Assembly (NCBI GenBank): GCA_018825145.1 | Contig: JAHJFD010000032.1 | Coordinates: 1 to 47,608 of the forward strand | Length of the DNA stretch: 47,608 nucleotides | Origin: Patescibacteria group bacterium | GTDB lineage: Bacteria > Patescibacteriota > Gracilibacteria > UM-FILTER-43-11 | Direction of reading: 5' to 3' | In this document: positions 18,141 to 42,474 of the stretch, piece after piece | Numbering within the stretch: position 1 is the first letter of the stretch | How the letters are laid out: each line of letters opens with the position of its first letter | Notes under the pieces: generated by a model | Told to the model about the DNA's origin: nothing | Databases searched by the model: none | The model's input: the letters and a program-made list of their open reading frames with translations, nothing else | Translations under genes and position numbers: made by a program

Positions 18141-18169
18141 AATATAGTGAACATATGTTCACTAGTCAA
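18141..18169 (-). promoter_or_regulatory. SOS-box-like promoter upstream of higBA
   Basis: On the minus strand, TTGACT (18164-18169), 17 bases and TATATT (18141-18146). The spacer contains the perfect 16-base palindrome GTGAACATATGTTCAC (18147-18162), which matches the Gram-positive-type LexA core GAACnnnnGTTC. It is one of four such promoters in the window. It would add DNA-damage control to higBA, upstream of the self-regulated promoter. Confidence 0.6.
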
Positions 18170-26993: not shown

Positions 26994-27248
26994 ATGAAAG
27001 AATTCCTATCAACTGTAGAGGCTGCAGAGATTTTGGGTGTTAGCCGAGTCACTCTTTTTAACAAAATTAAATCCGGTGAAATAGAGGCTATTAAAGTTGG
27101 ACGTAATTACATCATTTCGCGTGATGTAATTATCAATTATTCCAAAAAAGGTGAATTGACAGATGCAAGGAAAAGGGAGATCGAAAAGGAGGTCGACAAG
27201 GTTATTAAAGAATATGGTGAGACTTTAGAATTACTTAAAGATAATTGA
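26994..27248 (+). CDS. Excisionase-type HTH antitoxin of a Fic/Doc module
   Basis: From the ATG at 26994 the protein has 84 residues. The first half is a MerR/Xis-like HTH (FLSTVEAAEILGVSRVTLFN then IKSGEIEAIKVGRNYIISR). The C-terminal helix RKREIEKEVDKVIKEYGETL probably contacts the toxin. An upstream in-frame start lies inside the operator, so I reject it. Its stop shares one base with the toxin start. Confidence 0.8.
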   Translation: MKEFLSTVEAAEILGVSRVTLFNKIKSGEIEAIKVGRNYIISRDVIINYSKKGELTDARKREIEKEVDKVIKEYGETLELLKDN

Positions 27249-27679
27249 TGATTAAGAAACTTAGCATCAATGAGGTAGAATTCTTGGCTCATACTCTTGC
27301 TCAGAAATTTCTGGCATGGGATGAGCCTATCCCCGCGTTTTCCACACGGTTTGAGAATAAGCTGGAGAGTTGTCTTGAAACGCCTTTTATTACTTATGGT
27401 GGCACAACGCTTTATCGGGGATTAGTGAACAAGGCGGCCATCCTATTCTATCTGCTTGTGAAGAATCACCCCTTCCAAAATGGCAATAAGCGTATTGCTG
27501 TTACGACCCTGCTCCTTTTTCTTATGAAGAATAAAAAGTGGATAAAGGTCGGCACTCAGGAATTCTATAATTTCGCGGTCTGGGTCGCTCAAAGCCCTCC
27601 TGAATTGAAAGAAGATACCGTTAAAGCGGTTGCCTCTTTTATTCGTCAGAACATGACTGAGGCGACTGCCTCCCGATAG
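27248..27679 (+). CDS. Fic/Doc-family toxin
   Basis: The 143-residue protein has the Fic core motif HPFQNGNKRIA, close to HxFx(D/N)GNxR, with Lys where AMPylating Fic proteins have Gly, as in Doc. Doc phosphorylates EF-Tu; other members transfer AMP. The upstream flap region FITYGGTTLYRGLVNKAAIL is also typical of Doc-type proteins. There is no inhibitory alpha helix in the toxin itself, which fits control by a separate antitoxin. Its 3' end overlaps the convergent nuclease gene by 34 bases. Confidence 0.87.
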   Translation: MIKKLSINEVEFLAHTLAQKFLAWDEPIPAFSTRFENKLESCLETPFITYGGTTLYRGLVNKAAILFYLLVKNHPFQNGNKRIAVTTLLLFLMKNKKWIKVGTQEFYNFAVWVAQSPPELKEDTVKAVASFIRQNMTEATASR

Positions 27680-29066: not shown

Positions 29067-29095
29067 AGCATAGTGTACAAATGTTCACTGGTCAA
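29067..29095 (-). promoter_or_regulatory. SOS-box-like promoter of the NYN gene
   Basis: Minus strand: TTGACC (29090-29095), 17 bases, TATGCT (29067-29072). The spacer holds GTGTACAAATGTTCAC (29073-29088), one change from the palindromic consensus. The start codon follows within ten bases of the -10, so the leader is almost absent. Confidence 0.6.
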
Positions 29096-29103
29096 TAGAA
29101 AAG

Positions 29104-33040: not shown

Positions 33041-33859
33041 TTAAAAGAGTTCCAACTGATCATCGGCTTTCGGATAAAATACACCAATGATAATAAAGGG
33101 GTTTTTGCCAACCAAGTGATGTTCACGGGTCGTTCCGAGAAAAAAGTGCGTATCTTTAGTTTTTGCGAAATTTTCAAAATATTTCTTTCTTACACTTTCA
33201 CAAGCCCTATCCTCATCGCCTTCATATCGCCCTAGTTCTTTCCAGTACAGTGCGCCTATCTCCCAATCTTCAATCATTAGTTTGCTTTTGGTGCCATTAA
33301 TATCCTCAAAAACGTATGAGAATTTAAATGGCAGTTTGTTGACCAGCTTAAATGGGTTATCCTTTTCTTTAAACAGATTCAGTTGTTCCGAGTTTTGCTC
33401 AATTTTCTTGAGTTTCTGCATATCCCATTCTCTTTCTACAGGCTCAGTAATAAACTCAATAATTTTTTTTGGTTTAAAAACAGCTAATGAAGTGTATTTG
33501 CTTTTATTCCTCGCATCAGCAATAAGCTGTGGCATGTTCTGATGTACATTCTTAAGTACGAGTTTCCGTCTGTCGCGCCACCTTCCGCTTTTGTCTGTTT
33601 CGATTTTTTCGCAAGGTTTAAGCGTATCTAGGTTGGGGCGATAAGTTTCGGGTCGGAAATCGGATTTATTCCTTTCCAATTCACATTCAATCCACTGGTA
33701 TTTCGCGTACTTTTTATCAAAGTAGAGCTTGCGGAAGGGTATAGGATAAATCCGTATCCAGGTACTGTCTTCTTTCATGCCGGCGGTACAGACCAGTTCG
33801 TCGTATTTGGTGGAAAGAGTGGGGTAGGTTTTTACAAGGATCAATAATCGTGTTTTCAT
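33041..33859 (-). CDS. DUF488-partner protein, unrecognised
   Basis: The 272-residue protein opens LLILVKTYPTLSTKYDELVC and then TWIRIYPIPFRKLYFDKKYAKYQW. The C-terminal part has FFLGTTREHHLVGKNPFIIIG. It overlaps the DUF488 gene by four bases. The TWIRIYPIPFR and FLGT blocks look conserved, as if for nucleic acid binding, but I do not know the function. Confidence 0.65.
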   Translation of the reverse strand: MKTRLLILVKTYPTLSTKYDELVCTAGMKEDSTWIRIYPIPFRKLYFDKKYAKYQWIECELERNKSDFRPETYRPNLDTLKPCEKIETDKSGRWRDRRKLVLKNVHQNMPQLIADARNKSKYTSLAVFKPKKIIEFITEPVEREWDMQKLKKIEQNSEQLNLFKEKDNPFKLVNKLPFKFSYVFEDINGTKSKLMIEDWEIGALYWKELGRYEGDEDRACESVRKKYFENFAKTKDTHFFLGTTREHHLVGKNPFIIIGVFYPKADDQLELF

Positions 33860-34737
33860 AAGTGCTCAATTTGGAATGCCCAATTCGGTTGTTTTTTTAT
33901 TTGTTTCACTATTTTATGACGATGGCAAAAGTTATGGTCGGCCTCAAAACAAGTGATGGCAATTCGCTTATCTTTTAGGAATACCTGATAAAGTATTTCA
34001 AGGCTCACCTTATTTGCAGGTAAGGTCTTTTTTTCATATTCCTTAAATAATTTTTCGTAGTCCGTTTTGTCTGCCAGGTTCTTTCTTTTGGCGGATTCAA
34101 TCCCAAGTTCCGGGAAATGGATGTAGCCAATACCTAGTTTTTTACAAGCATCTTCGAGCTGATTCCTGGAAAACCCATATTTCATGCTAATCGGATTCTT
34201 ACGTACATCACATAAAACACGGATATTATTTTCGACGAGTTGGTTTAAGTAATAATCAAATGTCTTTCCTTCATAGCCAATGGTAAAGAAGGCATATCCA
34301 TTCTGCGTTGGTTTATGCTTATTAACTTCAGCCAGTTCATCCTTACTGAGGCAATCAACAGCGATTTCACTTTTAATGGCGTAATAGGGATATTTTAAGT
34401 AAACATACCTTACCAGACTCTTGCCATTGAGCGATCCGCATTCCCGTTTGACTTTCATAACAGATACTTGATCATCCTGAGTTAGCTGAGAAATATAGTC
34501 TGTTTTATCACTAATCGACCAGTTGTCCATATTTTTAATCATGCCATAGCCAGTCATTGTTCTTTTGTCTGCATAGGATTGAAAGGAAAAACCGCCGAAT
34601 TTATAAGGCACAAAATCAAAGGCCGGGCTTACCTGCTCCCTTGTTAGCAAAAACAGGTATTTTTGGAAATCGGTGCCGTTCAGGCGACCACCAAATTCCT
34701 GTAGTAATGCCAATAAAATTTTTCTTCGGTAATACAT
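33856..34737 (-). CDS. SocA/Panacea-like N-terminus fused to DUF488
   Basis: The 293-residue protein has two parts. Residues 1-145 (LLALLQEFGGRLNGTDFQKY and FVPYKFGGFSFQSYADKRTM) resemble SocA/Panacea-type folds. Residues 150-285 are DUF488: FFTIGYEGKTFDYYLNQL, LCDVRKNPISMKYGFS, and ITCFEADHNFCHRH with its Cys/His end. DUF488 proteins often lie near defence genes but have no proven activity. It is the first gene after an SOS-box-like promoter and is coupled to the next gene. Confidence 0.8.
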   Translation of the reverse strand: MYYRRKILLALLQEFGGRLNGTDFQKYLFLLTREQVSPAFDFVPYKFGGFSFQSYADKRTMTGYGMIKNMDNWSISDKTDYISQLTQDDQVSVMKVKRECGSLNGKSLVRYVYLKYPYYAIKSEIAVDCLSKDELAEVNKHKPTQNGYAFFTIGYEGKTFDYYLNQLVENNIRVLCDVRKNPISMKYGFSRNQLEDACKKLGIGYIHFPELGIESAKRKNLADKTDYEKLFKEYEKKTLPANKVSLEILYQVFLKDKRIAITCFEADHNFCHRHKIVKQIKKQPNWAFQIEHL

Positions 34738-34755: not shown

Positions 34756-34784
34756 ATCTTAGTAAACATTTGTTCACCCGTCAA
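34756..34784 (-). promoter_or_regulatory. SOS-box-like promoter of the DUF488 operon
   Basis: Minus strand: TTGACG (34779-34784), 17 bases, TAAGAT (34756-34761). The spacer holds GTAAACATTTGTTCAC (34762-34777), one change from the palindrome. It starts four bases after the stop of the small acidic gene. Confidence 0.6.
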
Positions 34785-34787
34785 GCA

Positions 34788-35465: not shown

Positions 35466-36125
35466 TTATTTTATATTAGATGGGGGAGTTTGCAAATTGA
35501 GATTCTTGATTTTTTCCTCCGTTATCTTTTTGTTTGCCTCTATAACTTCTACTTGAGGTGGTTCGGTTATTGTGTAGCCTACCAGCTCAACGATCATTTG
35601 ATCAAATTCGGTTTCCGTTGCGATAATTACTTTATCCAATCCCAGCGTATCGCCTTTTTCAATTTTGGCTTTGAGATTTGCCGCTTCTTTCTTATCCAGC
35701 GTAATCAAATACGAAATACTTTTACGATGAACATTTTTGAGGGCCATTGCTTCCAAATCCGCTTGTTTATATCTTTCCCTAAGGCTTGTTTTTGCGCTTA
35801 AACAAATAGGTCCCTTTTCCAATGTGTAGAGCATCAGATCAAAACTAACATTCGGAACAAATGCGACATTGGCCTGTAGAAATAGGGGCAATAATCCTTC
35901 TTTGATGAAGAGAGTGGCGAGAAGATATTCAAATATCTCGCCATTGGAATTACCTGCCAGATTCTTTTTCTTGTCATACTCAACATAAGTGTCCCAACAT
36001 TTGGAAATGTATTCTGAGGGCACTTTGTATGGCAGCTCCAAGAAGTTTGGAAAAAGCTCCTCAAATATTTTCGCAGCTTGAGTATCTTTGCCTGATACGA
36101 TACCAATGTCGTGTAAAAGCCCCAT
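35466..36125 (-). CDS. Putative type II restriction endonuclease
   Basis: The 219-residue protein lies seven bases after the cytosine methyltransferase on the same strand. It has a PD-(D/E)XK-like arrangement: Glu64 in NGEIFEYLLA, Asp96 in VSFDLMLY and Ser110-Ala-Lys112 in LSAKTSLRERYKQADLEA, with the acidic residue of the E-x-K pair replaced by Ser as in several type II enzymes. The LRERYKQADLEA segment after the lysine resembles known restriction enzymes. The recognition site is unknown. Confidence 0.7.
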   Translation of the reverse strand: MGLLHDIGIVSGKDTQAAKIFEELFPNFLELPYKVPSEYISKCWDTYVEYDKKKNLAGNSNGEIFEYLLATLFIKEGLLPLFLQANVAFVPNVSFDLMLYTLEKGPICLSAKTSLRERYKQADLEAMALKNVHRKSISYLITLDKKEAANLKAKIEKGDTLGLDKVIIATETEFDQMIVELVGYTITEPPQVEVIEANKKITEEKIKNLNLQTPPSNIK

Positions 36126-36132
36126 AAAATTA

Positions 36133-37083
36133 TTAATGAAGTGGTGTAGGTGTTAGCTTTCTGGCATGTACTGCCATTTTGCTGATGTTTGAAGTGTGCG
36201 CGTTGAATTGAACGGTAGGGTTAAAGGATGTATCAAGAATTTTGATTATTTCGGCGCCGACAGCCTGAATTGCATTGACTGCGACACTATTACCCAGCTG
36301 TTTCATTGCTTCCACATTACTTACCGGAAAAACAAAATTGTCGGGAAAACCCTGCATTTTCTTGCCTTCATCAGGCGAAAGACGCTTTACTTTGCCGTCA
36401 ACAAGATAGGCATCCCAGTTCCGTCTATCGTTGATGCGGGAACCGCGACCGCCACAGCGTAGGGTGAAGCCGATCGTTCTGCTGCAATCACCACCCCAGA
36501 CATCGGACATCGTCATTTTCGTCTTAATCGGTGTCGGAAATTCGAAATCGATCTTCTTGTCTTTGAAACCAACCATAAACAGTCGGGGCCGTAATTGGGG
36601 TAAGCCGAAATCGGAAGCTCTCACAATCTGCCAGTGGAATGAATAACCAAGATCTTCCTCAATGACTTTTTTAATTGTGGCGAATGTTTCACCATTGTTG
36701 TGATTAAGGAGGCCCCTGACATTTTCGAGAAAGAATGCTTCAGGTTTCTTAATCCTAAGTATTTCAGCAATGTTGAAGAATAGTGTACCCCTGGTATCTG
36801 CGAATCCCTTTTTAAAACCCGCCTGACTGAATGGCTGACAAGGAAAACCGGCTGTCAAAATTTGAAAATCGGATATCTCAGTATCTATGTCCTTAATCGA
36901 ATTGATGTCACCATAGAACTTCTTTTTCCTGAACAGTTCGGGTGACATTTTTTTGAAGTTGCGCTCATAGGTCTTTCTGGCATGTTTGTCCCATTCACAA
37001 GCAAAAACGCATTCGGCACCCAGTCTGTGGAATGCCAGATGGAAGCCGCCGATGCCTGCGAATAGATCAATGAATTTGTACAT
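36133..37083 (-). CDS. DNA (cytosine-5-)-methyltransferase
   Basis: The 316-residue protein has the C5 motifs in order: FIDLFAGIGGFHLAF (SAM site), GFPCQPFSQAG with the catalytic Cys, ENVRGLL, LPQLRPRLFMVGF, a short target-recognition region around GFTLRCGGRGSRINDRRNWD, and QLGNSVAVNAI. With the next gene it forms a type II restriction-modification system; vsr upstream fits C5 methylation of DNA. Its promoter has an SOS-box-like palindrome. Confidence 0.95.
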   Translation of the reverse strand: MYKFIDLFAGIGGFHLAFHRLGAECVFACEWDKHARKTYERNFKKMSPELFRKKKFYGDINSIKDIDTEISDFQILTAGFPCQPFSQAGFKKGFADTRGTLFFNIAEILRIKKPEAFFLENVRGLLNHNNGETFATIKKVIEEDLGYSFHWQIVRASDFGLPQLRPRLFMVGFKDKKIDFEFPTPIKTKMTMSDVWGGDCSRTIGFTLRCGGRGSRINDRRNWDAYLVDGKVKRLSPDEGKKMQGFPDNFVFPVSNVEAMKQLGNSVAVNAIQAVGAEIIKILDTSFNPTVQFNAHTSNISKMAVHARKLTPTPLH

Positions 37084-37110: not shown

Positions 37111-37139
37111 AGTTTAGTGAACATTTGTTCACTGGTCAA
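37111..37139 (-). promoter_or_regulatory. SOS-box-like promoter of the methyltransferase
   Basis: Minus strand: TTGACC (37134-37139), 17 bases, TAAACT (37111-37116). The spacer holds GTGAACATTTGTTCAC (37117-37132). The vsr stop codon is inside the box, so vsr and methyltransferase are separated by this regulated promoter. Confidence 0.65.
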
Positions 37140-37533
37140 GAAGTTTTTTTAGTCGTTTGAAACACGAACCTATATTACATTTTATTTCGTGTTCCCAAAA
37201 GCGCAATGGTTCAATCCCCAAATCCTTCAACTTGATATCATTGTCCAGATCCCGTTCAACGTTGCTTCTGATTTTGGAATTCCAGAACTTCTTGTTGGTT
37301 TTGGGTGCCTTGTAGCATTCGGGGCATTGGTGCCAAAAGCAGCCGTCAATGAATACGGCCACCTTTTGAGGTCCGAAGTATATATCCGGTTTGCCTGGCA
37401 GGCTGGCATGGAGCCGGTAGCCCCGCAAGCCCTTTGACCAAATATACTGGCGGAAGTTTATCTCGAGCTGGGTATTTTTGCCCTTAACCTGGGACATGCA
37501 GTGACTCCGTTGCTGCTTGGTCATTCGGTCCAT
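37129..37533 (-). CDS. vsr: Very short patch repair (Vsr) endonuclease
   Basis: The 134-residue protein matches Vsr: MTKQQRSHCMSQVKGKNTQ at the start, LPGKPDIYFGPQKVAVFIDG with the catalytic Asp, CFWHQCPEC with the zinc-binding Cys/His, and NKKFWNSKIRSNVERD. Vsr nicks T:G mismatches left by deamination of 5-methylcytosine. It accompanies the adjacent C5 methyltransferase. It stands downstream of a CIRCE-like promoter. Confidence 0.95.
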   Translation of the reverse strand: MDRMTKQQRSHCMSQVKGKNTQLEINFRQYIWSKGLRGYRLHASLPGKPDIYFGPQKVAVFIDGCFWHQCPECYKAPKTNKKFWNSKIRSNVERDLDNDIKLKDLGIEPLRFWEHEIKCNIGSCFKRLKKLLDQ

Positions 37534-37832
37534 GGTGCTTTCTGGGTGAAGTTTGTGAGCGTTGTCACTATTCTAGCATGCCGCAAATACATAATTTATA
37601 TTTAACGGGCACAAAATATATTATGCTTATATTAATTAAGTAGAAAATTTCCTTGACATTTATTTAATTTTGAGGATGCTGTCATTGTAAAGAGTTTTAG
37701 CACTGTGTATTTTAGAGTGCTAAGTGGACAGCGTCAACTATTTATTGTTTCTTAGCAATAAGTTTTTATATATTTGGAGTTGGTTTAGCCAGAATTTGGG
37801 CGATAGCTGTGCATTTTGAAATGTGTCGCAGT
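37534..37832. other. Intergenic region with a CIRCE-like promoter
   Basis: About 300 bases between vsr and the DUF2779 gene, without a gene. It holds the CIRCE-like promoter (37697-37737) and an extended -10, TGCTAGAAT near 37571-37579, that could be a second vsr promoter. A 17-codon frame starts near 37685 on the minus strand without a ribosome-binding site, so I do not call it. Confidence 0.5.
37697..37737 (-). promoter_or_regulatory. CIRCE-like operator and promoter upstream of vsr
   Basis: TTAGCACTG (37697-37705), nine bases, GAGTGCTAA (37715-37723): 8 of 9 positions pair, matching the HrcA operator TTAGCACTC-N9-GAGTGCTAA. On the minus strand TTGACG (37732-37737), 17 bases and TAAAAT (37709-37714) put the -10 in the centre of the operator, as in the groES promoter here. 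The first gene downstream is vsr, after a leader of about 165 bases. Confidence 0.7.
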
Positions 37833-39242
37833 CTAATGCCCAAGCGTCTTCTCCATCTCCCCCAAAATCCTCACCATCCCAAACGTGTCCATTTTACAGT
37901 AGGCCAGCATCTTCTTTTCCATTGTTCCCCGTTCGGCGGGGGGTAGTTTGCCGCTAATCAGTTCCGGCCAGTACTCAAACGCGGTGGCGGTTTCGGTGAC
38001 CAGGCCTTCGTAGCTCAGTTCAGGGCACATCACCGGTAGGACGGCTTTGATGGACCACTTGCCCAAAAAGTCCGGATGCACGTAGGCACCCTTTTTAACC
38101 GGCTCGGCCAGATCCACCATCCGTTTGTTCACAGCATTGAAGAATTTGGCGTAAGCGGGCAGACGCTCGGCCATTTCGGAATTCCGGTCCTTTTCAAAAC
38201 CCATATTCCAGGCAATCACGCTCCCTTTGGGGCCTAGCTGTTTACTCAGTTTTGCGGCCAATGCCGGTACCGGGTCCACGGCCTTCAGTTCCAGGTGCTC
38301 ATAGTGGAGCGGTTTTTGACCGGGTTTTTTGATGACGTGGAGCGAGTACTGGAACGGCATCTGCTGGTACGGGCGGTAGCCGTCACACATGGGAATCGCC
38401 GAGCTGTAAGTCTCGTAGTCAAGGAAGTAAAGCGGGTAGACTAGCTTTTCAATCCACTTCGCAATAGCCTTCCGGTCAATCTGCGGTTTGTCCGTAAGGA
38501 CAGACTCGTAGAACTTCCTCTTGGAAGGGGTAATCATGCCGGCAGGCACGTCTTTCATATTGAGGATTCCCTTATCAAGCAGAATGTTCAGTTTCTTTTC
38601 ATTCAGGCCCGCGTCGTAGATGGACGGGGTGGGGACATTTTTCCAGCAGTAGGGGATGAGCGGGCAGGCGAAGGGCTTAGAGCATTGTTTCAGGATCCGC
38701 ACATCGGGTTCGGTTTTGAGTCTGAGGACTTTCAGGGCTTCCTCTATGCGCGCAGGCAGTTCCTCCATACGTTCTTCCACTTCTTCCGTCACGTCTTCGA
38801 TTTTCAGCAGTTTTTTGGGCTCGATGGGGCCATGACGCACGTACTTATTGTTCACCAGAATCAGACAGACCTTTTTCACGGTCAGACCGCTTTCCGTCAG
38901 GCACTGCTTCTGGAACACCACGTCGCTCAGGTGGTAATCTTTTACCTCGGTGGAACTTTTGACCTCGTAAAGTTCGACTTCTTTTGGGCTGGTGTACTTC
39001 AGAATGTCGCATCGGCATATAATGCCTTGCTTTGGGCTTTTGAAGGTAGGCTGAAAGACCGCCCCATCGCCTTTGGGGAACAGCTCGCAGGCGTATTTCT
39101 CCACCTCATAGCCCTCCTCAAATACTTTCTCCAAGCTTAGGTCGATGTCTTCCGGCAATAAATCCCTGCGATGCTTATACAGCCACAAGTATTTTCGGCA
39201 CTGGAGCAATTTGATGAAGTCGGATTTTGTGAGTATCAGCAT
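37833..39242 (-). CDS. DUF2779 nuclease: Cas4-like PD-(D/E)XK plus DEDD exonuclease-like domain
   Basis: The 469-residue protein has two nuclease-like domains. The N-terminal one has FIKLLQCRKYLWLY (Cys15), Asp79 in CRCDILKY, Glu93-Val-Lys95 in ELYEVKSSTE, and three more Cys (187, 193, 199), giving a Cas4-like iron-sulfur candidate. The C-terminal one is RNase H-like: Asp275 and Glu277 in FLDYETYS, the IAWNMGFEK block near 343-351, and Asp452 in YCKMDTFGM. Its ATG overlaps the STAS gene stop by one base, so it is the third gene of the MerR/ATPase operon. Function unknown; DNA or RNA processing is likely. Confidence 0.85.
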   Translation of the reverse strand: MLILTKSDFIKLLQCRKYLWLYKHRRDLLPEDIDLSLEKVFEEGYEVEKYACELFPKGDGAVFQPTFKSPKQGIICRCDILKYTSPKEVELYEVKSSTEVKDYHLSDVVFQKQCLTESGLTVKKVCLILVNNKYVRHGPIEPKKLLKIEDVTEEVEERMEELPARIEEALKVLRLKTEPDVRILKQCSKPFACPLIPYCWKNVPTPSIYDAGLNEKKLNILLDKGILNMKDVPAGMITPSKRKFYESVLTDKPQIDRKAIAKWIEKLVYPLYFLDYETYSSAIPMCDGYRPYQQMPFQYSLHVIKKPGQKPLHYEHLELKAVDPVPALAAKLSKQLGPKGSVIAWNMGFEKDRNSEMAERLPAYAKFFNAVNKRMVDLAEPVKKGAYVHPDFLGKWSIKAVLPVMCPELSYEGLVTETATAFEYWPELISGKLPPAERGTMEKKMLAYCKMDTFGMVRILGEMEKTLGH

Positions 39243-39547: not shown

Positions 39548-40276
39548 TTAGAATTCTATGAGTGCTATACAGCCCCGAATGACAGAAGCGGTTGTTTTGA
39601 TGTTTTCCATTATTAAGGTTTCACCGGACTTCAGAATTAGTTGAGCGTTACCCGTCTGAAAAGTTAAGCTGAAATAACCATTTTCCACATTACGCTTAAC
39701 ATATTTTAGTCCGTTACCCCGTTTCTCCGGAGCTCTGCCAGTTATTACCTCGGTAAAAGCAATATTCAGCGCCTCGCTATGATCTTTTAGTCCGGGAATG
39801 ATTTGTTGCAGAGTTTTAAGTATGCCCAATCCCCGGTCGGCCAGCACAATTTTTCGTTCAGAAATGCTGTAATTAAAATAAATACCCGGAATATCCGGCC
39901 ATTTGCCTAAATTGTGATCAAAAGAATTGTTACCCATTTCTCCTGCAGAAGTTGAGATTAATGAATAGACTTCACCTACGCTTCTTTCAAGCAATTTCTC
40001 CATGACCGAGTTCCGGGCTTCGAATACAGGGCGGGTGGGACAATAAAATCCTTCATATGGTTCTTTGCCTTTTTCCATTGCCCAGAGTTTGGCATTCCAA
40101 AACAGGTCTTTTTCGAGGATTGGCTTAAGGGCATCCAAAGTATACCGCCGCTGGCCACCCTGGGTTCTTGTTGCCTGCAGTTTTCCGGCACGATCCCAGC
40201 GTCTTAGAGTTTCGATGGAAACACCCAGTATGCCGGCAGCTTCTCCGATGCTTAATTCCTGATAATTTTCAGACAT
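39548..40276 (-). CDS. MerR-type HTH fused to a GHKL (histidine-kinase-like) ATPase
   Basis: The 242-residue protein starts with a MerR/BldC-like HTH (residues 8-48; ILGVSIETLRRWDRAGKLQ and GGQRRYTLDAL). Residues 95-235 hold GHKL ATPase boxes: N box Glu113/Asn116/Asn117/His121 in AGEMGNNSFDHN, G1 box Asp147-x-Gly-x-Gly in LADRGLGIL, and G2 box RGNGL (186-190). No phosphoacceptor His domain is present. It is the first gene of an operon with a STAS-like protein and the DUF2779 nuclease. It probably binds the 21-base array upstream and changes state with ATP or its STAS partner. Confidence 0.85.
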   Translation of the reverse strand: MSENYQELSIGEAAGILGVSIETLRRWDRAGKLQATRTQGGQRRYTLDALKPILEKDLFWNAKLWAMEKGKEPYEGFYCPTRPVFEARNSVMEKLLERSVGEVYSLISTSAGEMGNNSFDHNLGKWPDIPGIYFNYSISERKIVLADRGLGILKTLQQIIPGLKDHSEALNIAFTEVITGRAPEKRGNGLKYVKRNVENGYFSLTFQTGNAQLILKSGETLIMENIKTTASVIRGCIALIEF

Positions 40277-40289
40277 GTTTATTATTACA

Positions 40290-40418
40290 ACCTACACATT
40301 TTTCATAAAAACCTATACATCTTTCAGAGTATAGTATACATCAATAAATGTCAAAAACCTACACATTTTTCATAAAAACCTACACATTTCGTATTATAAC
40401 CTATACATTCTTCACTTC
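40290..40418 (-). repeat. Array of 21-base operator repeats with an embedded promoter
   Basis: ACCTAyACATyTTTCATAAAA-type units start at 40290, 40311, 40357, 40378 and 40399, with a degenerate one at 40332. Spacing is exactly 21 bases except for a 25-base step between 40332 and 40357. A minus-strand TTGACA (40349-40354) with TACTCT 17 bases on lies at this irregular step. The array fills the gap between groEL and the MerR/ATPase gene. Its 21-base period puts sites on one face of the helix, suited to cooperative binding. Confidence 0.85.
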
Positions 40419-42095
40419 CTACATCATCCCCATCCCGCCCATCCCCGGCATACCTCCACCCATGCCCATCGGCATTTCGGATTCTTTCTTAGGGATCTCG
40501 GTTACTGCGGTTTCTGTCGTCAGGAACATGGCGGCAACGCTGGCGGCGTTCGTCAGGGCAGAGCGGGTGACCTTTTTGGGGTCAATTATTCCGGCCTTGA
40601 ACATGTCCACTAGTTGGTCAGCAGGCTTTGCCTTGATGTCTGTGGTGGCATCGTAACCAAAATTCTTGTGTGAACCCCAGGCTTTTTGCAGTTCAGCCTG
40701 AATCACGGCACCATCCACACCGGCGTTTTCAGCTATCTGATTGAGGGGATAGCTGAGAGCGCTTTTGACGATCTCGGCACCCAGTTGTTCTTCAGCAGAT
40801 TTGAATTTCTTTGGGTCAATGTGGTTGCTGGCCTGAAGCAGGGCGGCACCTCCTCCTATTACAATGCCTTCTTCCATGGCGGCACGGGTGGCAGAAAGGG
40901 CGTCTTCGATGCGGTGCTTCTTTTCTTTCAGTTCCACCTCGGTCGCGGCACCGACTTTGATGACGGCGACACCTCCGGTCAGTTTAGCCAAACGTTCAGC
41001 GAGTTTTTCCTTATCAAAATCAGACGTGGACTTCTCGATTTCATGCTTGATCTGAGTGACACGGCTCTGAATGGCGTCGGCATGACCTTTTCCTTCCACA
41101 ATGGTGGTGTTGTCTTTAGAAGACACGACTTTTCTTGCTCTTCCCAGGTCTTCCAGTGCGGCGGTTTCCAGCTTGAGGCCGACTTCGGAACTGATCACAC
41201 GGCCTCCGGTCAGAACAGCGATGTCCTGTAACATAGCTTTTCGGCGGTCACCAAAGCCGGGGGCTTTAATAGCCAGCGTGTTGAAGGTTCCTTTCAGTTT
41301 ATTCACAATCAGGGTAGCCAGCGCGTCGCCTTCAATGTCCTCGGCAATAATTACCAGGTTCTTTCGTCCGGCCTGCGCCATAGATTCAAGCAGGGGAAGG
41401 ATTTCCTGAATGCTCTGGATCTTGCTGTCGGTAATCAGAATGTGAGCATCGTCGTAACTGGCTTCCATACGGGCGCCGTCGGTAATCATGTAGGGCGAAA
41501 TGTAGCCGTTATCAAACTGCATTCCTTCCACCAAATCGATGGAAAGACCCATGGTCTGTCCTTCTTCGACCTGTACCACGCCGTCTCCGCCGACCTTTTC
41601 AAAGACTTCGGCAATCAGGGCACCGACTTCTTCGTTCTGAGCGGAAATCGTGGCGACCTGTTCCATCTCTTCCTTGGTGGTCACTTCCTTCTTCATCTTA
41701 TCCAGCTGGTCGATGACGATCTTTACGGCTGATTCGATGCCTTTTTTAAGAAGCATAGGGTTCACTTTGTTGGTGGTCAGGTGGTGCATGCCTTCTTTGA
41801 TGATGGCATGAGCCAGAACGGTGGCGGTGGTGGTTCCGTCTCCGGCCACGTCATTGGTCTTGTTGGCCACTTCCTTGACCAGTTGGGCACCCATGTTCTC
41901 GAATTTGTCTTCCAGTTCGATTTCGCGGGCAATGGATACACCGTCATTGGTAATGGTAGGAGCGCCGTAGGATTTATCCAGCAGGGCGTTGCGACCTTTA
42001 GGTCCCATGGTGACCTTAACGGCCATGGTCAGTTTCTCGATTCCATCAAGGAGTTTCTGCCTTGCGTCATCGCCGTGTAATAGTTGCTTAGCCAT
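40419..42095 (-). CDS. groEL: Chaperonin GroEL
   Basis: The 558-residue protein is a complete Hsp60: [32 protein letters not shown] (ATP site), and the GGM-rich C-terminal tail [16 protein letters not shown]. It follows groES after 37 bases. It is the second gene of a CIRCE-controlled operon. Confidence 0.98.
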
Positions 42096-42132
42096 AATAA
42101 ATAGAGTTATTTTTCTTAATTGATAGTTATTC

Positions 42133-42423
42133 TTACATCACAATTGCGCGGACGGAGGTCATTTCGACGATCTTATATTCCACGCCTTCGACTTTAACGT
42201 CTTCACCGGAGTATTGGCCATAAAGGACCTTGTCTCCCACTTTCATTTCAATCGGGAGCTCGGCGCCTTTGTCTGTAATATTGGTTTTGGACACCGCGAT
42301 TACTTCACCCTCTTTGGGTTTCTCTTTGTTGGCGGTATCAGGAATAACGATGCCGCTCCTGGTCACTTCTTCGGCCGCGAGGGGCTTGATGACCACGTAA
42401 CCGTTTAAAGGTTTAATCTTCAT
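42133..42423 (-). CDS. groES: Co-chaperonin GroES
   Basis: The 96-residue protein has the Hsp10 pattern: [14 protein letters not shown], a mobile loop [29 protein letters not shown] and the end TSVRAIVM. It caps GroEL. It is the first gene of the operon. Confidence 0.97.
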
Positions 42424-42447: not shown

Positions 42448-42474
42448 TTAGCACTAACTATTATAGAGTGCTAA
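42448..42474 (-). promoter_or_regulatory. CIRCE operator and promoter of groES-groEL
   Basis: TTAGCACTA (42448-42456), nine bases, GAGTGCTAA (42466-42474). On the minus strand a TATAAT -10 lies in the centre, with a weak -35 TTGCTA 16 bases upstream. This is the HrcA-type control expected for groESL. The hrcA gene is not in the window. Confidence 0.85.

Follow-up and report, generated by a model that had tools for sequence, protein, structure and literature searches.

A CIRCE element, the operator of HrcA, stands in front of the mismatch endonuclease gene vsr in a 47,608-nucleotide stretch (the window) of a Patescibacteria group genome (G000; 1.16 Mb, 93% complete), and we think it somewhat probable that a captured HrcA promoter of the dnaK/clp type now drives vsr and subjects it to HrcA control. 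The CIRCE heat-shock switch is usually placed in front of protein-folding genes. Chaperone targets are what defines the class I heat-shock regulon, and the gene behind this copy is vsr; Pfam scans of a subset of open frames found no chaperone gene downstream of the element or elsewhere in the surrounding island. Coordinates are collected in the table.

Features of the vsr locus and its surroundings, in window coordinates
Feature	Position	Strand	Remarks
groES CIRCE (comparison)	42448..42474	.	window pattern search; only other window match at up to 3 mismatches
groES-groEL	40419..42423	-	
DUF2779 / Cas4-like nuclease gene	37833..39242	-	upstream of CIRCE
-35 hexamer TTGACG	37732..37737	-	begins 14 nt ahead of CIRCE
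CIRCE (HrcA operator)	37697..37723	.	17/18 arm bases
-10 hexamer TAAAAT	37709..37714	-	within CIRCE spacer
Leader, CIRCE to vsr	37534..37696	-	searches for chaperone remnants and Rfam families negative; fold ordinary (z 0.14)
Extended -10 TGCTAGAAT lacking a -35, possible second promoter of vsr	37570..37578	-	motif match
vsr, mismatch endonuclease	37129..37533	-	Pfam PF03852; TIGR00632 over cut-off
LexA/SOS box GTGAACAAATGTTCAC	37117..37132	.	predicted; between -35 TTGACC (37139-37134) and -10 TAAACT (37116-37111), methylase promoter
C5 cytosine methyltransferase	36133..37083	-	PF00145; TIGR00675
Probable restriction endonuclease, BsaWI-like	35466..36125	-	22.4 bits vs Pfam cut-off 26.2
SOS box (predicted)	34762..34777	.	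24 nt ahead of PDC-M19A/B candidate defence genes
PDC-M19A/B candidate defence genes	33041-34737		
SOS box (predicted)	29073..29088	.	14 nt ahead of NYN-domain gene
SOS box (predicted)	18147-18162		before likely HigBA-type toxin-antitoxin pair (by reading)

The element, TTAGCACTGTGTATTTTAGAGTGCTAA, forms the inverted repeat TTAGCACTC-N9-GAGTGCTAA with a single mismatch among the 18 defined bases of the consensus; its arms and changed base are written TTAGCACT[G]TGTATTTTAGAGTGCTAA. The sequence-only reading had proposed a CIRCE-like operator here, one arm base off the consensus, and this was borne out. One hundred dinucleotide shuffles of the window, searched at up to three mismatches, gave a mean of 0.00 CIRCE matches against two in the real sequence (vsr and groES), and across 39 genomes the pattern at up to two mismatches matched 100 times forward and 3 times with the reversed control pattern. 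Of the 84 CIRCEs assigned to chaperone or hrcA genes, 5 carry the same change, G to C in the second arm, which should thus be tolerable. A chance palindrome without HrcA function would account for the base that departs from the consensus, but the shuffles, the reversed control and a -35 and -10 correctly placed relative to the repeat make such a coincidence extremely improbable. By its sequence the element is a genuine HrcA operator, and we infer that HrcA binds it. An assembly error in the contig is conceivable.

The genome encodes, on contig C31, an HrcA of 235 amino acids, recognised by Pfam PF01628 over the cut-off, with a DNA-binding domain (PF03444) scoring just under its own (19.9 bits, cut-off 21). 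At no more than one mismatch it holds four CIRCEs, in front of dnaK, a clp gene, groES and vsr. A fifth, with three mismatches, overlaps the start of hrcA; the reversed control yielded two matches in this genome at three mismatches, so that only the first four are safe alone.

The vsr operator overlaps a sigma-70 promoter directed towards vsr: on the minus strand, TTGACG (37737-37732)-17-TAAAAT (37714-37709) scores highest among the promoter-like sites between 37100 and 37900, with 10 of 12 bases matching. To place this arrangement among others, downstream genes were assigned for 89 distinct CIRCE sites, a non-random sample of loci from pattern and BLAST searches. Eighty-four lay ahead of dnaK, groES/groEL, clpB/clpC or hrcA, the ClpC and ClpB labels being those of the best tblastn reference and not separating the two; the other five were the vsr site, a clpP gene (by reading), two contig-end sites adjoining grpE, and a site in genome G016 described below. 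At dnaK/clp CIRCEs, TTGAC occurred 12-17 nt upstream in 54 of 57 cases in the direction of the gene and in none of the 57 in reverse, and TANNNT followed the first arm directly in 54 of 57 cases in the direction of the gene and in 4 of 57 in reverse. The corresponding counts at groES CIRCEs were 2/21 and 6/21. The vsr CIRCE conforms to the dnaK/clp layout towards vsr, not in reverse. Thus, the earlier claim that operator and promoter overlap just as they do at groES is correct as to the overlap but not as to the likeness. In this genome, moreover, groES has an additional -10 (TACAAT) immediately upstream of its CIRCE.

From the operator to the vsr start codon (ATG at 37533) the distance is 163 nt. 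Neither a terminator nor another gene of at least 80 amino acids was found in this interval; Rfam at the gathering threshold returned no match to the leader, which folded no better than its shuffles. A leader of about 165 bases had been taken as a possible trace of a lost gene, but this is a weak sign: at 8 of the 84 chaperone or hrcA CIRCEs the recognised chaperone gene starts more than 163 nt away, with groES or another gene possibly intervening in some. The leader also contains the extended -10 TGCTAGAAT 36 nt ahead of the ATG, which could render the CIRCE promoter dispensable. If vsr were driven from there, or by read-through from the DUF2779 gene, after which no terminator was found, the CIRCE would be irrelevant to it. 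No -35 accompanies this -10, the motif is absent from the promoter-like sites listed for the region, and a complete and stronger promoter lies on the CIRCE, all of which makes this explanation quite unlikely.

The gene so placed is an intact vsr whose profile match exceeds the curated cut-off, and its neighbours are those of a defence locus. On the minus strand the order runs groES, groEL, a MerR-type regulator, a STAS-like gene, DUF2779, CIRCE, vsr, C5 methylase and BsaWI-like nuclease, with the PDC-M19A/B candidate defence pair among the genes beyond. The locus may be one of type II restriction-modification, the methylase being certain and the match of the adjacent nuclease falling below its cut-off. 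In the sister genome G001 (groEL 92% identical) the gene immediately after groEL is of the Fic/Doc kind and the island is absent. Because the window homolog of that Fic/Doc gene (by reading) is found only at 27245-27679, some 12 kb of G000, from about 28.4 to 40.4 kb, is on this comparison extra DNA, a defence-type island. An island borne by a tRNA gene was considered and rejected, the window containing no tRNA. Short direct repeats (AACCTACACATTTTTCATAAA-like, with 21-nt spacing) occupy 40268-40429, just past groEL at the island border.

A repeat scan of the window revealed a palindrome of another kind at 37114-37140, 34759-34785 and 29070-29096. At the first of these it lies within a promoter 33 nt ahead of the methylase start that overlaps the end of vsr. 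With GTGAACANNTGTTCAC as the pattern and up to two mismatches allowed, 19 sites were found in G000 against 1 in the control, and in every one of the 18 family genomes real sites outnumbered those of the control. One site stands 36 nt upstream of recA (PF00154) in G000, and another precedes a gene for an S24 peptidase (LexA-like) in G004, to which genes of G015 and G002 appear similar by reading; the loci of the 19 sites in G000 itself showed no lexA gene. We take the palindrome as the LexA box of the clade. In the window such boxes front accessory and defence genes, namely the methylase, the PDC-M19A/B pair, the NYN-domain gene and the likely HigBA-type pair.

The closest ortholog of the locus, in G009, has a vsr 78% and a methylase 83% identical to ours, followed by a nuclease of the HpaII family in place of the BsaWI-like one, and it bears an SOS box with two mismatches at the same position of the vsr-methylase junction; a second vsr of G009 has a one-mismatch box directly in front. 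The methylase and nuclease of G000 thus appear to have their own LexA/SOS-box promoter, by prediction, and only vsr lies directly behind the CIRCE. This makes it less likely that, as the sequence-only reading had it, HrcA governs the restriction locus as a whole. What stands of that proposal is the vsr part, for which there are a real operator and promoter aimed at the gene and an HrcA encoded in the genome. Read-through from the CIRCE promoter into the methylase and nuclease genes is possible, since no terminator was found.

We then compared relatives. In the 18 genomes of the family, 45 of all 49 CIRCEs (up to two mismatches) precede chaperone or hrcA genes and two, next to grpE, are truncated where the contig stops, which leaves two exceptions, the vsr site and one in G016. 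The latter (G016:C87:10743-10769; L095:2244-2270) has a promoter of canonical -35/-10 form, TTGATT-16-TATTAT, and a gene start about 10 nt beyond. Apart from vsr, its gene is the sole target of a CIRCE in the family that is no chaperone or hrcA gene; it encodes 323 amino acids with a weak zinc-ribbon match, a weak PADLOC match to TIR (E 5.6e-4) and no NCBIfam match.

Among 353 genomes of the class, 24 carry vsr (E <=1e-10), 28 genes in all including that of G000. None of the other 27 has a dnaK/clp-type CIRCE ahead of it, two of them (in G012 and G189) having almost no upstream DNA in their contigs. A CIRCE-like site at up to four mismatches within 1.5 kb was found at one of the 27, in G192, with three mismatches and 70 nt upstream. 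It belongs to a divergent hrcA (vsr-hrcA locus L480:5998-6499) and, by reading, shows no -35/-10 layout towards vsr, and is thus probably an HrcA autoregulation site with vsr on its other side. A further 80 genome-contig and 80 viral-contig vsr loci (789 kb), kept from an alignment-based search after a single-protein search of genome and viral contigs had given nothing, held no CIRCE at up to four mismatches. A conserved CIRCE-vsr pair elsewhere was therefore rejected (0 of 27 and 0 of 160). As the pair occurs in a single genome, conservation cannot argue for its function.

In G009 neither an operator nor a chaperone gene stands in front of the orthologous vsr; a three-mismatch site lies about 2.1 kb downstream of the first vsr, with no chaperone nearby. 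G000 and G009 share no DNA upstream of vsr, and both retain the vsr-methylase junction together with an SOS box in it, the pattern expected if the promoter side had been swapped. A chaperone gene between operator and vsr in relatives, the finding that the sequence-only reading had named as counting against itself, was not found in that form: G009 lacks both operator and chaperone, and G001 lacks the island.

The main alternative is that the element is a relic of a lost or displaced chaperone of the dnaK/clp type, a promoter that still fires towards vsr but whose control of it is incidental and unselected. Its confinement to one genome and its dnaK/clp-type promoter are what such a relic would show, as is the presence of vsr within a few kilobases of dnaK in two family members: a vsr of G015 is preceded, at a distance of about 3.6 kb, by dnaK with its CIRCE on the same strand, the two being separated by a gene on the other strand, and in G003 dnaK is about 2.8 kb away on the opposite strand. 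With the hrcA of G192 these make 3 of the 27 other vsr genes that have an HrcA-regulon gene within flanks of up to 6 kb, too few for a claim of a hot spot. Against a relic, searches of 37534-37832 with GroES, GroEL, DnaK, ClpB, ClpC, HrcA and GrpE gave a best E value of 0.63, all matches being short, and adding Hsp20 gave nothing at E <=1, so that a chaperone lost from between operator and vsr was rejected. In addition, the dnaK, clp and groES genes of the genome are intact elsewhere, each with its CIRCE, and CIRCE is absent from 15 of 15 hsp20 loci of the family, which leaves no known fourth chaperone target to have been lost. We therefore hold a relic to be possible but rather doubtful. Even so, it would remain a clear case of promoter capture within a defence island.

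On the preferred reading, capture of the promoter by vsr, the operator, the promoter with its orientation, HrcA and the SOS box are read from the DNA, and from them we infer binding, induction, read-through and the capture itself. An HrcA-repressed sigma-70 promoter of the dnaK/clp type would have come to lie before vsr while the defence island was assembled beside groESL. HrcA bound to the CIRCE would cover the -10 and block transcription; titration of GroEL by unfolded protein, in heat or other proteotoxic stress, would release HrcA and yield a vsr transcript with a leader of about 169 nt. The methylase and nuclease would be expressed from the LexA-repressed promoter at the vsr-methylase junction, maybe with extra read-through. 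Heat speeds the deamination of 5-methylcytosine, which creates T:G mismatches that Vsr repairs. A possible benefit of linking vsr to heat would be the repair of these mismatches.

If vsr answers to HrcA, protein-folding stress would switch a nuclease that repairs 5-methylcytosine damage, and DNA damage would switch the adjoining methylase-nuclease pair; the HrcA regulon would then extend beyond chaperones to genome defence and repair. A broader reading, which we regard as unlikely, is that in these bacteria defence genes have come under HrcA on more than one occasion, coupling restriction-type defence to chaperonin status. Overload of GroEL, through heat or conceivably through phage proteins, would make HrcA let go of its operators, freeing vsr in G000, the zinc-ribbon/TIR-like gene in G016 and possibly vsr in G192, and LexA would free the methylase and nuclease on DNA damage. 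If this were true, two stress signals would be read by one locus. The locus is a concrete place to ask whether chaperonin load serves as an alarm for defence genes.

Class I regulation of dnaK, groESL and clp by HrcA and CIRCE shares with the vsr locus the operator, the sigma-70 overlap, HrcA and the dnaK/clp promoter layout, and differs in its targets: here the gene behind the operator encodes neither a chaperone nor a protease but a mismatch endonuclease, and it belongs to a probable restriction-modification locus (for HrcA and CIRCE background, see PMC10602874). CIRCE at non-chaperone genes is already known: the Waddlia effector wcw_0502, with HrcA occupancy by ChIP-qPCR (PMC12038028), and predicted HrcA targets of Lactobacillus plantarum, lp_1268 (an integrase) and lp_1880 (PMC3842655). 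These have the operator in common with vsr but differ in the genes, and HrcA control of vsr is a prediction from sequence. Caulobacter vsrA (PMC12907096) is SOS-linked and has a LexA box inside the gene. It is likewise a stress-regulated vsr tied to a cytosine methylase with a LexA site in the locus, whereas the predicted box of G000 is at the methylase and its vsr has an HrcA operator. The hsd genes of Streptococcus thermophilus rise on heat shock, and the paper mentions only two CIRCEs, at dnaK and groESL (PMC3192767), so that HrcA is not the direct cause there; restriction genes and heat shock are common to both cases, and the predicted direct HrcA control of vsr sets them apart. A restriction controller also binds a clpB promoter that carries a CIRCE, as described in PMC5282649. 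The literature searched, which left most subscription journals outside its reach, did not describe HrcA as a regulator of vsr or of any restriction locus.

Several observations on CIRCE and groEL were made in passing. Viral contigs (L375, L384, L396, L402, L406, L417, L429, L449 and others) carry exact CIRCEs about 28 nt before genes that by reading resemble those for small heat-shock proteins. Many exact CIRCEs in other viral contigs have no clear promoter layout or chaperone gene, and a GroES match lay downstream of only 8 of 87 viral-contig CIRCEs (80 loci). The sister genome G002 (95% complete) has no groEL match, although family members have groEL. In one viral contig three exact CIRCEs stand in tandem, 49 nt apart (L399:5424-5548). 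Elsewhere (L124:1501-2054) dnaK is preceded by a pair of exact CIRCEs with about 500 nt between them, the first followed by a small gene of about 110 amino acids.
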